A stretch of DNA of 64,000 bases. Source: Zhongshania aliphaticivorans. GTDB taxonomy: Bacteria > Pseudomonadota > Gammaproteobacteria > Pseudomonadales > Spongiibacteraceae. The DNA lies in the NCBI RefSeq assembly GCF_001586255.1, contig NZ_CP014544.1:961501-1025500 (forward strand), in the 5' to 3' direction. The notes beneath the pieces were generated by a model. The model did no database searches and was not told the origin of the DNA. It saw nothing but the letters and a program-made list of their open reading frames with translations. Position numbers and translations under genes: made by a program. Shown here piece by piece: positions 53,566 through 62,119 of this stretch (position 1 is its first letter; each line of letters starts with the position of its first letter).

Positions 53566-54726
53566 ATGAATGAGGTCTTGCAGCGCCGCCTCGCCGAGCG
53601 CCGACACCAATCCCGCTACCGACGTCGTCGAGTGCTAGAGTCTGCTCAAGGGCCGCGGCTGCAAGTTGACGGCCGTGATTTGCTGCAATTTTGCAGCAAC
53701 GACTACCTAGGCTTGGCAAACCATCCTAAATTAATTGCCGCAATGCAGGACACCGCCGCTCAGTTCGGTGTGGGTGGTGGCGCCTCCCATTTGGTCTGTG
53801 GCCATTCTGAGCTGCACCATCAGCTTGAAGAGCGCTTGGCTAAAATCACGGGGCGTGAGCGCGCGTTATTATTCTCCACGGGTTACATGGCGAATCTCGG
53901 CACGGTTACGGCCTTAATGGGAAAGGGCGATCATATCCTTGAAGATCGCCTCAATCATGCCTCGCTCCTAGATGCGGGCTTGCTCAGTGGCGCGCGTTTT
54001 CAGCGTTTTCAGCACAATGATATGGCTGACCTCGAACGCCGATTGCAAAAACTGCCTGCGGATGGCAACCGTTTAATAGTGGTCGATGCGGTATTCAGTA
54101 TGGATGGCGACATGGCGCCGTTGCCAGCGCTGGCTGCATTGGCGCACAAATACGATGCCTGGCTAATGGCCGATGATGCCCATGGCTTTGGTGTGCTGGG
54201 TGAAAATGGCGCAGGTAGCGCTGAATTTTTTGACCTCGATCAGCAGCAATTGCCGGTGCTTATGGGCACCTTGGGCAAGGGACTTGGTAGTTTTGGTGCC
54301 TTTGTGGCGGGAAGTGATGAGCTAATAGAATCGCTTATCCAATTTGCGCGCCCCTATATTTACACCACTGCGATGCCGCCGGCGGTCGCTGCGGCCACTA
54401 TTGCAGCTTTGGACTTGCTGGTTGATGAGCCTTGGCGGCGCAGTCATTTGCAAGAGTTGATTCGCTATTTTCGTGATAAGGCCATCGCGCTGGCGCTGCC
54501 GGTGATGGCATCAAATACCGCTATTCAGCCCCTGCTGATAGGCGACGAAATCGCTGCAATGGCGCTCAGCAGCGCATTAGAGCAGCGCGGTATACTGGTT
54601 TCTGCGATACGCCCACCTACGGTGCCGGTAGGCAGCTCGCGTCTGCGAATTACCCTGTCGGCAGGGCACAGCAAAGCGGACATTGATTGCTTGTTGGCGG
54701 CGCTTGTTGAGGCGCTGGCTATTTAA
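53566..54726 (+). CDS. bioF: 8-amino-7-oxononanoate synthase
   Basis: 386 residues, a PLP enzyme joining pimeloyl-ACP and alanine. [13 protein letters not shown] and the PLP-lysine segment [15 protein letters not shown] are diagnostic; [12 protein letters not shown] is the N-terminal family motif. A GTG just before (53563) is an alternative start. The stop overlaps the next start (TAATG). Confidence 0.97.
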
Positions 54727-56306
54727 TGGCTATTTATCGCGAGCACTTGGCGGCCTACCGAAAGGATGCGGCGGAACTGGTTTTACTGCATGGCTGGGCC
54801 AGTGATTCATCTATTTGGCGGCCCTTATTGGCTGCGCTGCGCCGCGACTTCCACATTACCCTCATTGATCTGCCCGGCTGCGGACGCAGCGCTAAGGTGA
54901 TGGCGAGCAGCGATCCAGATCATTATATTGACGCAATTTTGCCGTTAGTCCCAGCAAGTGCTATTTATTGTGGCTGGTCTTTGGGGGGCATGCTGGCAAC
55001 GCGATTGGCGGCGCGTTTCCCCGATCGGGTGCAGGCGCTGATCTGTGTGGCGAGTAATGCGGTGTTTGTCGCTGACGCTGATTGGCCCGCGGCAATGGCA
55101 AAGCAAGACTTTGATGCCTTTTCTGCTCTGGTTGCTGCTAATCCTCGTGCCAGCTTACGTCGCTTTGAGTTATTGCAATTACATGGCGATTGCCATGCAA
55201 AAGAAGTTCGTGCGGAGCTTCAGGGTCTTGCGATAGCGCCTTCACAAGAAAATTTGTCTCTGGGATTGGCTTGCTTGCAATCACTGGATAATCGGCAAGC
55301 GCTGGCTGACTTGGCCTGCCCCTGTCTTTATCTCTTTGGTGGGGAGGACGCGCTAGTGCCTAGCGCTGCAGCCGACATTTTTGCTGAGCGCTATCCCCAG
55401 CACAGTAGCCAGCAGCTTGCGGACCGGGGGCATATATTATTTTTAGCTGACGCAGGGGAACTTAGTTCTTTGTTGCTGTCTTATTGCCGTAATTGGGGCT
55501 ATGTCGCAACGGATAAGCCAGCGCAGCTGAATAAATCGGATATTGGTCGCTCGTTTAGTCGCGCCGCCCATAGCTATGATGGCGCCGCGCTACTGCAGCG
55601 TCGTGTTGCAGATCGCTTGATCGCCTATTTGCCACAAGAGATCGCCGGGCCAGTGCTGGATCTTGGCTGCGGAACCGGATATAGCCTGCCAGCTTTGCAG
55701 GCTCGTATAGGCGCAGAGCCGCTGTTAGCCTTAGATTTGGCGGCGGGTATGGTGGGGCATGCCGCTGAGCAATATCCAAATATTGCAAATTATTTTGTGT
55801 GTGGCGATGCTGAAGACTTGCCCTTAGCAGATAACAGCGTGGCGACTATTTTTTCAAGTCTGGCCCTGCAGTGGTGCGAGAACTTAGCGGGACTGATGTT
55901 TGAGATAGAGCGGGTTTTGCAGCCAGGTGGCTCTGCGGTCATCGCTACTCTGGGGCCAAATACGCTTCATGAGCTGCGCAGTGCTTGGCGCCGAGTTGAC
56001 GGCTTTGTACATGTCAATCAATTCGCTGAGCGGGACGATTTAGCGGCGGCGATATCCGGCTCAAGCCTAGCCATTGAAGCTTGGGAAGAGGTCGTTGAGG
56101 TCATGTACTACGACCGCTTGTCTGAACTGACCCGGGAGTTAAAGAGTATTGGTGCCCATAATGTCAACGGCGGGCGGCCGAGTGGCTTGACGGGGCGGCA
56201 GCGCTTGCAAGCGCTCACGCAGCAGTACGAAGTTTATCGCGGTGCCGAGCTAAAGTTGCCCGCGAGCTACCAGCTTTGGTATTTAAAACTTAGTAAAAGC
56301 CGGTAA
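54726..56306 (+). CDS. bioHC: BioH-BioC fusion: pimeloyl-ACP methyl ester esterase and malonyl-ACP methyltransferase
   Basis: 526 residues. Residues 1-258 are an alpha/beta hydrolase of the BioH type: LLHGWASDSSIW, nucleophile GWSLGG (Ser85), Asp208 in FGGEDAL and His236 in DRGHILFL. From about 268 comes BioC: IGRSFSRAAHSYDGAA, SAM motif LDLGCGTGYS (311-320), FSSLALQWCENL and NGGRPSGLTGR. BioC methylates malonyl-ACP to start, and BioH removes the methyl to end, pimelate assembly. Both halves look complete, so one polypeptide does both. Confidence 0.94.
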   Translation: MAIYREHLAAYRKDAAELVLLHGWASDSSIWRPLLAALRRDFHITLIDLPGCGRSAKVMASSDPDHYIDAILPLVPASAIYCGWSLGGMLATRLAARFPDRVQALICVASNAVFVADADWPAAMAKQDFDAFSALVAANPRASLRRFELLQLHGDCHAKEVRAELQGLAIAPSQENLSLGLACLQSLDNRQALADLACPCLYLFGGEDALVPSAAADIFAERYPQHSSQQLADRGHILFLADAGELSSLLLSYCRNWGYVATDKPAQLNKSDIGRSFSRAAHSYDGAALLQRRVADRLIAYLPQEIAGPVLDLGCGTGYSLPALQARIGAEPLLALDLAAGMVGHAAEQYPNIANYFVCGDAEDLPLADNSVATIFSSLALQWCENLAGLMFEIERVLQPGGSAVIATLGPNTLHELRSAWRRVDGFVHVNQFAERDDLAAAISGSSLAIEAWEEVVEVMYYDRLSELTRELKSIGAHNVNGGRPSGLTGRQRLQALTQQYEVYRGAELKLPASYQLWYLKLSKSR

Positions 56307-56871: not shown

Positions 56872-57765
56872 ATGATCAACTCGGAAAAAATGCGGCTAAC
56901 TATGTTTGCTGCCAGCATGGTTGCAGCTGGAGCGCTGACTGGGTGTTTCAACGACAAAAGTTCTGACCCAAGTACTACTGGCTTCGGTCTTGGTGCTGCA
57001 AAGGGTGCTATTAACGGCGCAACTTGTAATTATAAAACCGCAGTGAATACCAATGGTTTTGCTGGTACAACCGATGCGAATGGTGAAGTGCAGGTGGCAG
57101 TTACTCCTGGTTTCGGCGCAAATGATTACCCAGTTGTTATTACATGTGTAGGCGGGACTTATTTTGATGAGTCTGATAACTCTACTCAGCCGCAGACTGA
57201 ACCAATGCGTTCTGTAATTCCTGACGCCCAGTCAATTGCAGAGGTTGGCGGAAAAATCGGCGTAAACCCATTCACTGAGCTTGCAACTGCATTGTTTGAC
57301 AGCTTGCCAGCTGGCGCGGCAAACAGAACTGCGGCAGCGGCTAAAGCTAGCTATGGCGAAATCGGACGTCTTTTCGCGCCTGGTATGGTGGCAAACGGCG
57401 GTGCGTTGAACCTGATGCAGGCGTCTACTCCTGTTAACACTGCTAACCCGACTAATTTGGGTAATAATGTCGCGGGTCAGCTGGCTACATATTTGGCTGG
57501 TTTCGCTAAATATGCTGCCACTAATGGCGGTAGCATGGCGGTTCTAGCTGATTTGCGCACTAAAATTGCTACAGGTACTGCAGTTCCTGCAAGCGTGGCG
57601 CAAGGCATTAAAACTCAGGCTAATAGCTATACTCCTGGTGCTACAACTGGCGTAACTGCTCAGCCTAGCGGTAATGGCGGCACTGCGCAGAAGCCAACTT
57701 CTGGTGGTGCCACTGGCGGCACTGGCGGCACTGGTGGTACTGGCGGCAGTGGTGGTCAGGTTTAA
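56872..57765 (+). CDS. Lipoprotein with Gly-Gly-Thr tail (first of two)
   Basis: 297 residues, not recognised. The signal peptide has lipobox LTGC (Cys25). The mature part includes GATCNYKTAVNTNGFAGTTDANGEVQVAV, like a small beta domain with a disulfide, then a helical stretch and an Asn/Ala/Thr-rich end. The last 20 residues are repeats of GGT closing with GGSGGQV. ATG 56872 has GGAG 8 nt before; an upstream in-frame start at 56797 would precede the signal. It has its own terminator. N-terminal 30 residues and tail match the next protein. Confidence 0.85.
   Translation: MINSEKMRLTMFAASMVAAGALTGCFNDKSSDPSTTGFGLGAAKGAINGATCNYKTAVNTNGFAGTTDANGEVQVAVTPGFGANDYPVVITCVGGTYFDESDNSTQPQTEPMRSVIPDAQSIAEVGGKIGVNPFTELATALFDSLPAGAANRTAAAAKASYGEIGRLFAPGMVANGGALNLMQASTPVNTANPTNLGNNVAGQLATYLAGFAKYAATNGGSMAVLADLRTKIATGTAVPASVAQGIKTQANSYTPGATTGVTAQPSGNGGTAQKPTSGGATGGTGGTGGTGGSGGQV
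57703..57756 (+). repeat. 9-bp GGT-coding tandem repeat, first lipoprotein
   Basis: Degenerate tandem units GGNGGNACN encode the Gly-Gly-Thr tail. Third positions differ between units, so the peptide rather than the DNA appears conserved. Confidence 0.75.
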
Positions 57766-58091
57766 TCGCGAGCGTTAGTGACTGAAAAGGGCAGCGTTTA
57801 GCTGCCCTTTTTTTTGTGTAAATAATGAGCAATCAAAAGTAAAGCAGGGCTTACCCTCGTTTCCTGTGGTCCAGCTAATAAGTGCCTTATCATTCCTGAA
57901 ATGGCGACTTGCTAATAAAACCACCTTCCTTCTTAGCGTCCCGTGTGAGCGGATATCGTGGTGTGCGTGTTTGTAAAACCGAATTAATTTTTGTTTGCGG
58001 TGGCGCATGGTATTCAGTGTGCTATATATCTACTGGGCTGAAAATCTAAGCTAATAATGCAGTCTGCTTCTTATAACAGGTGGGTGTAGAT
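57766..58091. other. Gap between the two lipoprotein genes
   Basis: 326 bp. It holds the terminator at 57785-57815 and then AT-rich sequence with no convincing frame on either strand. A promoter for the second gene must lie here, but I cannot pick one with confidence. Confidence 0.5.
57785..57815 (+). terminator. Rho-independent terminator after the first lipoprotein
   Basis: An 11-bp stem AAAAGGGCAGC/GCTGCCCTTTT with a 5-nt loop and eight T. Confidence 0.92.
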
Positions 58092-59903
58092 ATGAATAAT
58101 AAGGGGAATATGCGACTAACCCTGATTGCTGCGGGGGTTATGTCAGCGGGAGCGCTAACGGCTTGCTTTAACGACGAATCAGCGAAAGTTGTCCGGCCAG
58201 TCGAGGACAGCCTATTTGTGGTGCGCTTAGTGGATGAAAAGCGTCAGCCGATTTCGGGCACTATTCAAATTGAAGACCAGGATGGCGGGCCTAATGATGC
58301 TGCGCGGTTCTCGTCGGTCAATGACGATGTTTCCAAAGTTAGCTATACCGCGGGTGCGAATGGTATTGTCTTTCTCGATTTGGTGAGCTCCTCAGACTTG
58401 ATTAAGAACGACCCACTTGATGTTGTTTTTGTGGGTTCGGCGTCTGGCTATATCGCCAGCAGTAAATTGGGCTCGTATACCGCTTCTGGTCAGTATGCGG
58501 AGACCATTATATTAACCTCCAAAACCGCCGCGGCGACAACGCCAACGGCATATAAATCGGTGGTTGGTAATGCAACGGTTTCCGGTGGTATAGCAACTAA
58601 TGATACAGATTTAGTGCTGACGACAGACAAGCGTGCCGCCGGTGCTGGCCAGGCAGCGGTAAAGGGTACGGCGAAAGTCAGAATTCCTGCAGGTACTCAA
58701 ATGTCCTTGGCGGACGGCACTGCGCCTGCCCCCGGCCCTATTACGCTGGAAACGGTCTATTTTGACAATGATACCGACCCTGCAGTAACCCCTGCTGACG
58801 GCGCCCTTGCGCTTTTTCCCGGTGGCTTAACAGGTATGCAGGTCAGTGGTCAGAATCCGGGATCAATGGCATCGGCTGGTTTTGCGGCAATTGAGTTACG
58901 TGACTCAGCGGGTAAGCTGATCACCAAATTTAATGGCCAAAAAGTTGAAGTTGAAATGGTCATCCCCGATGGCACTCCTTACCCTTCTGGATCCACCGTT
59001 GGCCAGGATGTAGACAGCAATAGCGTTGTGTCTGCAGGCGATACTGTGCCGGTATGGTCTTATGATGAGATTAAGGGCAGGTGGACCGCTCAGCTTGATG
59101 CTCAGGGCGCCCAGCAAATTGCGACGGTTCAAACGCGTACCGTTGGTGGTCAGCCAGAGTTATTTGTTACGTTTACCTCGGATCACTTAAGCTACTTTAA
59201 CCTCGATTTTTACTTCAATACCTGCGCATCAGGTGCTGACGGCACGGTCTCAGTCGTTGATAAAAATGGTGTGCCGAATAATAGAACCCTAAATTTGTAC
59301 CTAAAACTGGCCGTTGGAAGCGGTGGTTGGGCGAATGACTCAGCGTCCGTGACGTCTTCATTCGATGTCTATAATTTGCCGAGCTTTGCGGTTAGTGTTG
59401 GGGCAGTTGATCCGGCTAACCCTGGTGTGGGGGTTGCTACTTTTACGCCGAGTGGCGGCGCAGCGTCAGCGGCTGCGACAAGCGGGGCATTGGCTGGCTA
59501 TGCGGCGGCGGGTACCTGCAATTTAATCGGCGGTGTTGTGAAGTTGAATGTAGAAAACGGGGGTACCGTTGCCCCAGTCCCGGTCAATCTTGAAATCAAG
59601 ACAAGGGCTGCATGTGCTAATATCGCTGGCCAATATGAAGCGGTTGCCGCCAGTGGCGCAATTAGCTCAGGCTCAAACTTTACATCATTCAGCACGTCTG
59701 CAAGCGGAAGTTATACCGCGTCGATTTTTGCTGCTCCGACCTACACGATTACTGTGGCAGGAAATGGCAGCGAAGCAACGGCGGGGCCTAACAAAGGTAA
59801 TACGTTTACTAATCCCTTGGTGTTAACGCTGGGCACTAAAACCTGTGCGACAGGTGGCACGGGCGGTACGGGTGGTACCGGTGGCAGCGGCGGTACGCTT
59901 TAA
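58092..59903 (+). CDS. Large lipoprotein with Gly-Gly-Thr tail (second of two)
   Basis: 603 residues, not recognised. The signal peptide has lipobox LTAC (Cys25), exactly the position in its neighbour, and both continue CFND. Predicted all-beta segments follow, including an Ig/CNA-B-like start (FVVRLVDEKRQPISGTIQI) and FTSDHLSYFNLDFYFNTC. Several paired Cys lie in the last third. It ends GGTGGTGGTGGSGGTL. The GTG at 58080 is in frame, but ATG 58092 has GGTGG at better distance. A terminator follows, so each lipoprotein is transcribed on its own. Confidence 0.85.
   Translation: MNNKGNMRLTLIAAGVMSAGALTACFNDESAKVVRPVEDSLFVVRLVDEKRQPISGTIQIEDQDGGPNDAARFSSVNDDVSKVSYTAGANGIVFLDLVSSSDLIKNDPLDVVFVGSASGYIASSKLGSYTASGQYAETIILTSKTAAATTPTAYKSVVGNATVSGGIATNDTDLVLTTDKRAAGAGQAAVKGTAKVRIPAGTQMSLADGTAPAPGPITLETVYFDNDTDPAVTPADGALALFPGGLTGMQVSGQNPGSMASAGFAAIELRDSAGKLITKFNGQKVEVEMVIPDGTPYPSGSTVGQDVDSNSVVSAGDTVPVWSYDEIKGRWTAQLDAQGAQQIATVQTRTVGGQPELFVTFTSDHLSYFNLDFYFNTCASGADGTVSVVDKNGVPNNRTLNLYLKLAVGSGGWANDSASVTSSFDVYNLPSFAVSVGAVDPANPGVGVATFTPSGGAASAAATSGALAGYAAAGTCNLIGGVVKLNVENGGTVAPVPVNLEIKTRAACANIAGQYEAVAASGAISSGSNFTSFSTSASGSYTASIFAAPTYTITVAGNGSEATAGPNKGNTFTNPLVLTLGTKTCATGGTGGTGGTGGSGGTL
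59853..59894 (+). repeat. 9-bp GGT-coding tandem repeat, second lipoprotein
   Basis: Same design as 57703-57756, with different third-position bases. Confidence 0.75.
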
Positions 59904-59921
59904 TATTAAACGGTGGTTTTT

Positions 59922-59951
59922 AAGGGTGGCTATATAGCCACCCTTTTTTTT
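59922..59951 (+). terminator. Rho-independent terminator after the second lipoprotein
   Basis: A 9-bp stem AAGGGTGGC/GCCACCCTT with loop TATATA and eight T. Confidence 0.92.
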
Positions 59952-59998
59952 GCGTTAAACTTAGCGCAAAATTTATATTAAAAAATGAGAGGTTTCCC

Positions 59999-62119
59999 TT
60001 GAAAAGGAATATTGGTGCTGGACTGTTAACGGCCGTATCAACGCTTGCATTTGCGCAAGGGAATATGAATATGCAAGGTGTGAGCGGCCTATTAAACGTG
60101 CCAGACGCCTCGGTGCTAGAATACGGCACAGCGACAATTGCTTGGGATAATCAGGTCGATGGTCGTTTTGCTCGGCCGCGAACACTGAATGACACCGGCA
60201 ATGATATCAATTTTGCAGCCGGGGCCTTTCCCCATTTTGAGATGGTGGGGCGCAATGTGTCACCTGAGACTACTTCAGGAGGCTCAGACTTATCATTTAA
60301 TATTAAATTACAACTCCCTTGGGAGTTGCTGCCGGGGCTTAATTTCGCCATTGGTGAAATGGATTTTGGTGGTTCGGTTAACGAATACGATACCAAGTAT
60401 GCGGTAGCAACGTGGCAATATGGCCCCATTCGCACGACCCTCGGCGCGGGTACTTACGACGGTCGAGTTGAAGGCACCGGTCGATTAGATGGGATTTATG
60501 GCGGTGTAGAATTTGCGGCTACAGATTGGTTAAGCGTAATACTGGAAGATGACGCCTACTCAATGAATACCGGTATTCGGTTGTCAACGCCAGAACACTG
60601 GTTGCCGGGTGGCTGGCAAGCATCGATGTTGTGGATGTATTCTGCCGAAGAAGGCGTAGACGATCGCCAAGATTGGTATGGCTTTAATGTCAAAATACCC
60701 TTAGCGGCAGAGTATGCACGGGTTTTACCAAAAGATCGGCCACGTTCTGAGGCCGTACTTAATTCCTCGTATGTTATTACCGAGAGTTACGGTAATGACG
60801 AATTATTAGCCAATAACCCCTTGCTTGCGCCACCCACGGCCTCGCCAGCGGAAGCGATGTCACGTTTAGACGCGGTGAATGGCGAGAAAGCACTGCATGA
60901 TCGTTTTGTTGCGGCTAATTTTGAGCAAGTGCGGGTGCAAAAATACGGTCGTGAGTGGGTCATCGCTTTTGAAAATGTGCAATACAATGCTAATGACATT
61001 GATGCTCTAGGTGTTGCCGCGGGTGTTGCGGCCATGTCGCTTCCCGATGGTGACCGCTTTTATTTGCAGCTAGAAAAATACGGCGTTGCTACCTTTGGTT
61101 TAGGTGGCGAAGTTGTCGCATGGAAGGCCTTTTTAAGGGGTAATGGCGCTATTCCCGATTCAGAGATGGTGACCGCCCCAGCAAATAGACTTCGGCGCCG
61201 CAGCGCAGACGGCGGGATTTTTGCTGCAAGTATAAAAAACAGCATCGATTATTTAGCTTTCAGACCTGATGTGCGTATTCGCCCTATTTTGTCGTCAACT
61301 GTGGGAACGGAGTACGGTGTTTTTGATTACTCCTTAGCTGCACGAGCGGATGTGGTTTTGCCGCTGTGGCGAGGTGCTGCCTTTAATGTCAGCCGCGACT
61401 GGAATGTTAACGATACGAAAGACTTCACTCGCGAAGGGATTTATGGCGGTGTTTTTTACAATCAGCGGGTAACGGAAGGTGTTAAAGACCGTATCTTTAG
61501 TCAGACTTTCCGTCATGGGCAAGGCTTTACCAGCATGATTTCTTATGGTCGTTTCTATGGTTCAGTCGACGGCGCATCGCTTGAAAGTCGCTGGGAACCC
61601 GGCGATGGCCGTCACCGTTTTAAAATTATAGCCACTGATTTTGAAGAGAAGCAGCGCCCAGAAAATACCCATAACGCGCGCTTGTGGTCTTATCGTTATT
61701 TTGCGCAAAGTATTAATACTTCAGTTGATATTACGGGGGGCGATTTCTATAACGAAGATTCGGGCTACCGACTGGAGTTTACTCAGCATGTTGGTGATGT
61801 CAGGTTGCATCTTTTGTACAAAAAGTCTGAAGATAACGCCTTTGCAACCTTGGGTTTTACGATTCCCTTAACGCCGCGCAAGGGTATGACCCGAGTTGCT
61901 GGTGTGCATGTTGAAGGTCAGGCTAACTGGGCCTATGGTATTACCACCATTCTTGGCGAGCAGGGCAATCGCTTAGTGTTTGGGCCGAATATTATTCCTA
62001 CCGTTTATAATGATTTGCGTAATACCTATTTCAGTGGCGATCGCCTAAATGCTGCTTATATCCGGGCTAACCAAGAACGCTTGGTTGACGCATGGCAGCG
62101 CTACGGTGAGAGCAAATAA
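59999..62119 (+). CDS. YjbH/GfcD-like outer-membrane protein
   Basis: 706 residues with a signal peptide (cleavage near AFA-QG). It starts with the family-like segment GVSGLLNVPDASVLEYGTA and has many alternating beta strands with aromatic ends. Recurrent segments are FGGSVNEYDTKYAVATWQYG, IYGGVEFAATDWLSV and, later, IYGGVFYNQRVTEGVKDRI. These fit YjbH-type beta-barrel proteins of exopolysaccharide or capsule export. The start is TTG 59999 with GAGAGG 8 nt before; the nearby ATG is out of frame. No other polysaccharide gene is in the window. Confidence 0.8.
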   Translation: MKRNIGAGLLTAVSTLAFAQGNMNMQGVSGLLNVPDASVLEYGTATIAWDNQVDGRFARPRTLNDTGNDINFAAGAFPHFEMVGRNVSPETTSGGSDLSFNIKLQLPWELLPGLNFAIGEMDFGGSVNEYDTKYAVATWQYGPIRTTLGAGTYDGRVEGTGRLDGIYGGVEFAATDWLSVILEDDAYSMNTGIRLSTPEHWLPGGWQASMLWMYSAEEGVDDRQDWYGFNVKIPLAAEYARVLPKDRPRSEAVLNSSYVITESYGNDELLANNPLLAPPTASPAEAMSRLDAVNGEKALHDRFVAANFEQVRVQKYGREWVIAFENVQYNANDIDALGVAAGVAAMSLPDGDRFYLQLEKYGVATFGLGGEVVAWKAFLRGNGAIPDSEMVTAPANRLRRRSADGGIFAASIKNSIDYLAFRPDVRIRPILSSTVGTEYGVFDYSLAARADVVLPLWRGAAFNVSRDWNVNDTKDFTREGIYGGVFYNQRVTEGVKDRIFSQTFRHGQGFTSMISYGRFYGSVDGASLESRWEPGDGRHRFKIIATDFEEKQRPENTHNARLWSYRYFAQSINTSVDITGGDFYNEDSGYRLEFTQHVGDVRLHLLYKKSEDNAFATLGFTIPLTPRKGMTRVAGVHVEGQANWAYGITTILGEQGNRLVFGPNIIPTVYNDLRNTYFSGDRLNAAYIRANQERLVDAWQRYGESK

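Follow-up and report, generated by a model that had tools for sequence, protein, structure and literature searches.

We find that two lipoprotein genes and a neighbouring barrel gene in Zhongshania aliphaticivorans belong to a real, recurrent genomic pairing around a known barrel family, YjbH/GfcD. The three genes lie in a stretch of 64,000 nucleotides (the window), which covers positions 961501-1025500 of a single 4.2-Mb contig: P0001, a lipoprotein of 297 residues (window positions 56872..57765, + strand), P0002, a lipoprotein of 603 residues (58092..59903, + strand), and P0003, a divergent YjbH/GfcD-family barrel of 706 residues with a TTG start (59999..62119, + strand). Both lipoproteins end in a Thr-Gly tail; such tails are retained on unrelated lipoprotein families, and across one barrel clade there is a genomic pairing with lipoproteins that carry them. 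The association of tail and YjbH barrel, which the original prediction had proposed from this one locus, extends well beyond the window and appears as enrichment in a sample of the host's order and in other orders, in searches that start from the lipoproteins, and in a tree of the barrels. The recurrence of the pairing in distant bacteria suggests that the Thr-Gly end serves the barrel as a tag or a docking peptide. We give roughly even odds (about 0.5) to the reading, based on sequence comparison, in which the trio is a functional set: a barrel from a distinct YjbH/GfcD clade with partner lipoproteins whose disordered tail, with the core T-G-x-T-G, engages it.

The likeness of the two lipoproteins is confined to their ends. 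P0001 begins with MINSEKMRLTMFAASMVAAGALTGCFND and P0002 with MNNKGNMRLTLIAAGVMSAGALTACFND, and the lipobox cysteine is residue 25 in both (signal peptide and lipobox up to Cys25, read from the translations, at 56872..56946 and 58092..58166, both + strand). Their C-termini are TGGTGGTGGTGGSGGQV (tail at 57712..57762, + strand) and TGGTGGTGGTGGSGGTL (59850..59900, + strand), each consisting of TGGTGGTGGTGGSGG plus two residues. The shared anchor and shared tail of the original prediction are exact in the translated open reading frames (ORFs), at correct coordinates, and its statement that the middle parts differ is borne out by a profile comparison of the two families, in which 36 columns align, covering the signal peptide and lipobox only. 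The shared tail is more than chance: across the 4.2-Mb genome a DNA pattern for Gly-Gly-Thr-Gly-Gly-Thr-Gly-Gly has five matches in three genes (P0001, P0002 and a P0002 paralogue, 44% identical, at 3.19 Mb), and its reversed control has none. To recognize tails in general we apply two tests to the last 20 residues: test A asks for two consecutive [TS]G[AGST] units, and test D for at least 12 Gly, Thr or Ser including at least three Thr. Among 201 closed ORFs of at least 60 residues in the window, two pass, namely P0001 and P0002. A wide Ser/Thr-Gly DNA pattern is too loose to inform, with 127+132 matches in the host genome against 229+233 for the reversed control and an ORF passing test A at 0/30 of the returned loci.

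Neither lipoprotein has a Pfam match at E up to 1, and NCBIfam likewise gives no match at E up to 1. The structure model of P0001 has a predicted beta domain, a helical domain and a disordered tail of low confidence (predicted local distance difference test, pLDDT, below 50 from residue 279); its best match among PDB structures has an E of 1.4, which we count as none. Sequence searches of the PDB with alignments A1 and A5 give no match at E up to 1, and alignment A4 (the P0002 family) gives four, at E 0.085-0.78, that are not credible. As a separate observation, a likeness below threshold to PF10577, which covers the N-terminal region of FAM171 proteins of animals, appears in P0002 relatives only (E 1.6e-6 for L100:8528-10147 and 2.9e-7 for L246:9190-10872).

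How did the two genes come to share their ends? The signal regions agree at 15/22 residues and 47/66 bases. Because the tails agree at 15/15 residues and at only 6/15 third codon positions, their identity lies at the level of the peptide, as had been argued from codon variation in the original prediction. Local gene conversion, in which signal peptide and tail were copied from one lipoprotein to the other and the likeness has no functional meaning, would accommodate the signal regions and the GGSGG in which both tails end; it accords poorly with the third codon positions of the tails and with the similar tails found beside such barrels in other families. We regard it as very improbable, and as the sole cause we reject it, since the wider survey described below largely refutes it.

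Now we consider the pairing within the host's family. Among its 21 genomes a P0003-like barrel is present in 11, a P0001-like gene in 8 and a P0002-like gene in 3, and 0/10 of the genomes lacking the barrel have relatives of P0001 or P0002. The P0001-like gene lies upstream of the barrel and on its strand in 8/8 cases, immediately so except in the window, where P0002 intervenes; in genome G019 a P0002-like gene ending in TGGTGGTGGTGGTGGTGGAGGGG occupies the place of the P0001-like gene, and G004 and G008 have the barrel with no such lipoprotein gene. The G013 pair of lipoprotein and barrel sits in a polysaccharide locus, alongside genes for a Wza-type protein and a sugar transferase. The tail, whose absence from close homologues was to count against the original prediction, is kept in 8/8 members of the P0001 family, with varying length, and in 6/6 members of the P0002 family (alignment A4). 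Its variants include G012, which keeps GTGGTATGG only, G013, which ends in PTGSTGATGATGS, and G009, where it is mostly Gly/Ser.

In the order as a whole, the Pfam family PF06082 (YjbH/GfcD) is present in 57/390 genomes; canonical, full-length members score 520-840 bits and divergent, P0003-like members about 24-65 bits, in pieces. Our order sample comprises 40 loci, with 20 stretches of 20 kb each, taken from genomes of the sample, as controls. The loci come from 39 of the 57 PF06082-positive genomes plus G019; nine Zhongshania genomes are covered via other loci, and nine positive genomes (G082, G263, G300, G333, G349, G366, G368, G382 and G388) were left out. Tests A and D, which were fixed after this sample had been viewed, are passed (A or D) by 21/325 ORFs within 4 kb of the YjbH gene, 0/156 farther away and 0/389 in the controls (p = 4.6e-8); with test A alone and a distance of 2.5 kb the counts are 12/225 near, 2/256 far and 0/389 in controls. 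Counted by locus, a tailed neighbour is found at 12/14 divergent loci (11/14 before we found the L099 lipoprotein, which the ORF picker, taking the longest ORF, had skipped) and at 10/26 canonical loci. At divergent loci the lipoprotein ends include GEATGATGASA, QTPTGATGATGALGGGE and ATGATGGTGASGTSGVN; at canonical loci the tailed genes mostly encode small exported proteins, with ends such as TTGTTGTTATSATSGT and NGTTGTTGTR.

The independent sample, to which the tests were applied frozen, consists of all 30 loci of 27 genomes of the class outside the order (two of them, L176 and L179, being 3.4-kb contigs). Here 9/205 ORFs near the barrel pass, 0/149 farther away and 1/203 in controls (p = 7.5e-4, near versus rest), and by locus a tailed neighbour occurs at 3/9 canonical, 1/12 intermediate and 4/9 divergent loci. 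Among the five divergent misses, the adjacent lipoprotein is cut by the contig end at L186 and L190, and L187 lies at a contig start; the other two are taken up below.

The association can also be approached from the lipoprotein side, where the barrel plays no part in the search. P0002, compared with 381 genomes of the order, gives five positive genomes, and outside the genus 2/2 of the genes adjoin a barrel. A profile of the P0002 family finds 9/369 genomes of the class positive; its strong matches outside the host adjoin a barrel of the P0003 clade in 3/3 cases (G466, G675 and G532), with the tail of the G675 lipoprotein lying on another contig and joined by inference only, and its five weak matches cover one domain of other proteins, with no barrel near and 0/4 visible ends tailed. 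When the profile is built instead from P0001-like lipoproteins of other families, there are 69 matches in 55/390 order genomes, many of them partial and in much larger proteins. Of 32 examined, 12 have no C-terminus in view, nine are tailed (six with a barrel within 1.5 kb, two with one at 3.6 kb, one without) and 11 are untailed, all 11 without a barrel in the available flank. This contrast is partly circular, because 7/9 of the tailed matches are seeds of the profile; of the two that are not, one has a barrel and one does not.

P0003 itself matches PF06082 with 45.1 bits (E 8.6e-12, cut-off 24), which places it in the YjbH/GfcD family, the sole Pfam family it matches at E up to 1. Its named relatives are in Zhongshania and Spongiibacter, the Z. 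antarctica barrel being 99% identical. A tree of 79 YjbH-like rows places every one of the 26 barrels scored as partnered with a tailed lipoprotein, which represent 12 families, within one clade of 31 members (Shimodaira-Hasegawa-like approximate likelihood-ratio test, SH-aLRT, 97); L186 and L190 count as partnered here even though the contig ends inside their lipoprotein ORFs. The 15 barrels with a Thr-rich YjbE-type neighbour all lie outside that clade, in a group of 46 (SH-aLRT 99). Clade members also share a type of C-terminal peptide, in P0003 GDRLNAAYIRANQERLVDAWQRYGESK (62036..62116, + strand), by a pattern defined after the sequences had been viewed: it is present in 28/31 clade barrels and in 1/48 others (46 without rows L176 and L180, probably wrongly picked ORFs to judge from their ends and long branch). 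The RDGGQ-type C-terminal peptide of the canonical YjbH members examined is not found in P0003. The pairing of tail and barrel even revealed a barrel that Pfam misses: the G532 barrel (L246:10968-13118), which has a tailed lipoprotein and genes of Wza and Wzc type beside it, has no Pfam match at E up to 0.01, belongs to the same clade, and matches a divergent-barrel profile built without L246 at 2e-132. Two shorter YjbH-like proteins of 482-487 residues, L098:7065-8513 and L101:7256-8719, which were excluded from the tree, lie in polysaccharide-type loci with no tailed neighbour. In G507 we see two sets of a barrel and a Gly/Ser/Thr-repeat lipoprotein on separate 4.65-kb contigs (L190 and L191), of which L190 stops inside the lipoprotein repeats.

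Quantitative inspection of the tails separates order from composition. The motif T/S-G-x-T/S-G occurs in 27/29 lipoprotein tails, some of which had been picked by tail-like tests, against 6.5 +- 2.1 expected from composition; in the 19 tails that homology searches give, it occurs in 17 against 4.7 expected (the sum of printed values). In YjbE-type tails the ordered motif is found in 6/16 against 3.1 (sd 1.3) expected, which is not significant. Because the excess is 27/29 over 6.5 in one group and 6/16 over 3.1 in the other, the ordered motif is a trait of the lipoproteins, whereas the likeness to YjbE-type proteins is one of composition. The comparison with YjbE/GfcA in the original prediction therefore stands in part: composition agrees, as seen in the E. 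coli YjbE end, GGGDGSNTGTTTTTTTSTQ, and in the Thr/Gly/Ser-rich neighbour at 10/26 canonical loci, and the ordered T-G-x-T-G does not. When seven divergent lipoproteins are aligned, four of the eight invariant columns are the T, G, T and G of the tail.

These regularities bear on a simpler account, in which the tail is a plain flexible spacer or low-complexity end that nothing recognizes, and lipoproteins and barrel are paired otherwise, for example by shared work at the surface. Gly-rich spacers are common, and this tail is predicted to be disordered and varies in length. Yet it stands at the extreme C-terminus, where it connects nothing, its T-G-x-T-G order goes beyond composition, and few parts of divergent relatives are as constant; the 11/11 untailed proteins with a P0001 domain and no barrel in the available flank point the same way, tempered by the 7/9 tailed ones that were profile seeds. 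We hold the spacer to be an unlikely account.

A different role for the tail is suggested by work on the E. coli systems. PMC8592465 describes GfcA as 30% Thr and proposes that it might carry an O-antigen modification and be directed to GfcD. By the same idea the Thr and Ser of the present tails would be sites of glycosylation or polymer attachment, the barrel exporting polysaccharide and the lipoprotein being the protein end joined to it. Several loci of the clade do contain polysaccharide genes (G532 has Wza and Wzc types, G013 a Wza type together with a sugar transferase, G161 Polysacc_synt_2 and G047 a UDP-sugar dehydrogenase), and the YjbE-type neighbours are Thr-rich. However, Gly is more constant than Thr/Ser in the tails, the G009 tail is mostly Gly/Ser, and the window trio sits amid biotin genes with no polysaccharide gene among the ORFs listed around it (50-64 kb). 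Attachment of glycan as the tail's function seems to us improbable.

The reading in which the tail engages the barrel has to be set against several observations that weigh on the other side. Terminator-like hairpins lie 3' of both lipoprotein genes (57784..57812 and 59922..59945, both + strand), parting the three genes; the hairpin scan finds 13 such sites in the region against 7.1 +- 2.7 expected, and the intergenic gaps are 326 bases (P0001-P0002) and 95 bases (P0002-P0003). Common occurrence of such tails on unrelated lipoproteins with no YjbH neighbour, which the original prediction had named as evidence against itself, was mostly not borne out; three barrel-less tailed genes were found. 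Two of them are P0002 paralogues next to ilvIH in barrel-free surroundings, in two genomes of the genus (L004:6832-8703 and L253:9590-11461; genomes G000 and G017), each of which has a barrel elsewhere; they include the paralogue in the host genome, where one barrel gene was found and a 17-kb stretch around the paralogue holds none. The third gene, in G317, has no barrel on its 5.3-kb contig. Two order-sample loci have their tailed gene on the strand opposite the barrel, at a distance of 3.6 kb. For five barrels of the clade no tailed lipoprotein is in view: L028 (G008) and L029 (G004), with no tailed ORF in the 19-kb stretches round the barrel, the divergent misses L185 and L192, with no tailed lipoprotein, and L187, whose upstream side is off the contig. 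Finally, the model of P0003, built from eight near relatives only, is poor (mean pLDDT 41, predicted template modelling score 0.28, pLDDT above 70 confined to part of the middle segment). Its order of strands, an alpha/beta segment (283-379) and strands fits a scheme of two barrels and a periplasmic middle domain.

If the tail does engage the barrel, the lipoprotein would first be lipidated and delivered to the outer membrane, after which the tail, as the part that meets the barrel, would enter or dock at the barrel's periplasmic mouth. It could lead the way as the lipoprotein moves to the surface, acting as an export signal on a client, or it could dock an accessory subunit that takes part in polymer export; we keep client and fixed subunit side by side as options. 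In PMC11494523, GfcD is modelled as two barrels with a lateral gate in the second, export of lipid-anchored polysaccharide is proposed, and room is left for anchors other than lipid A; such a gate would suit a lipid-anchored client. One may imagine, though we find it rather doubtful, that the clade barrels are an outer-membrane translocon that would recognize the C-terminal T-G-x-T-G tail, thread the lipoprotein (perhaps glycan-bearing) tail-first through one barrel and let its lipid anchor slip out laterally into the outer leaflet; YjbE/GfcA would then be the client in a form that lacks the lipid. Such a mechanism, if true, would add a new route to those taken by surface lipoproteins. The first barrel is likened to an amyloid exporter in PMC9603273, and in the sources examined the cargo proposed for GfcD/YjbH barrels ranges over free, lipid-anchored or protein-joined polysaccharide and an amyloid-like polypeptide. 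With lipoproteins that have a conserved Thr-Gly end as its usual partners, this clade supplies a concrete candidate for a client or subunit, and in the tail a short peptide open to deletion and cross-linking. Listings and abstract openings in the open-licence literature searched show no description of tails of this kind next to YjbH-like barrels.

Three known systems resemble the trio in part. The GfcABCD/YjbEFGH operons (E. coli group 4 capsule and exopolysaccharide) likewise combine a YjbH/GfcD barrel with a small set of exported proteins, among which one has a Thr-rich end; in the window the partners are larger lipoproteins, and the barrel has a different C-terminal peptide and belongs to a different clade. 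By ORF inspection no GfcB/YjbF- or GfcC/YjbG-like gene adjoins P0003, the two lipoprotein genes being all that lies between bioH-bioC and the barrel, and we reject membership of such an operon. Slam and its surface lipoproteins are alike in idea only: the Slam model (PMC9090332) has an outer-membrane barrel, a C-terminal specificity motif on the lipoprotein and a proposed lateral gate. P0003 matches YjbH alone in Pfam (E up to 1), with no Slam-type barrel domain, the tail of the present lipoproteins is a Thr-Gly peptide predicted to be disordered, and Slam membership is rejected.

GlyGly-CTERM-type signals are short conserved C-terminal signals on otherwise unrelated exported proteins, and their definition asks for a membrane helix and basic residues after the Gly-rich motif. 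The short conserved end on unrelated exported proteins is common to both, but P0001 and P0002 have two residues after the last Gly-Gly, no membrane helix or basic end, and a lipobox already present; together with the lack of an NCBIfam match at E up to 1, this leads us to reject the assignment.

The gene order at the locus is fused bioH-bioC, P0001, P0002, the P0003 barrel and bioD. The BioH-BioC fusion is one ORF of 526 residues (window 54726-56306), whose residues 16-252 match the bioH model TIGR01738 with 177 bits, below its cut-off of 206.95, and whose residues 276-520 match the BioC model TIGR02072 above cut-off.

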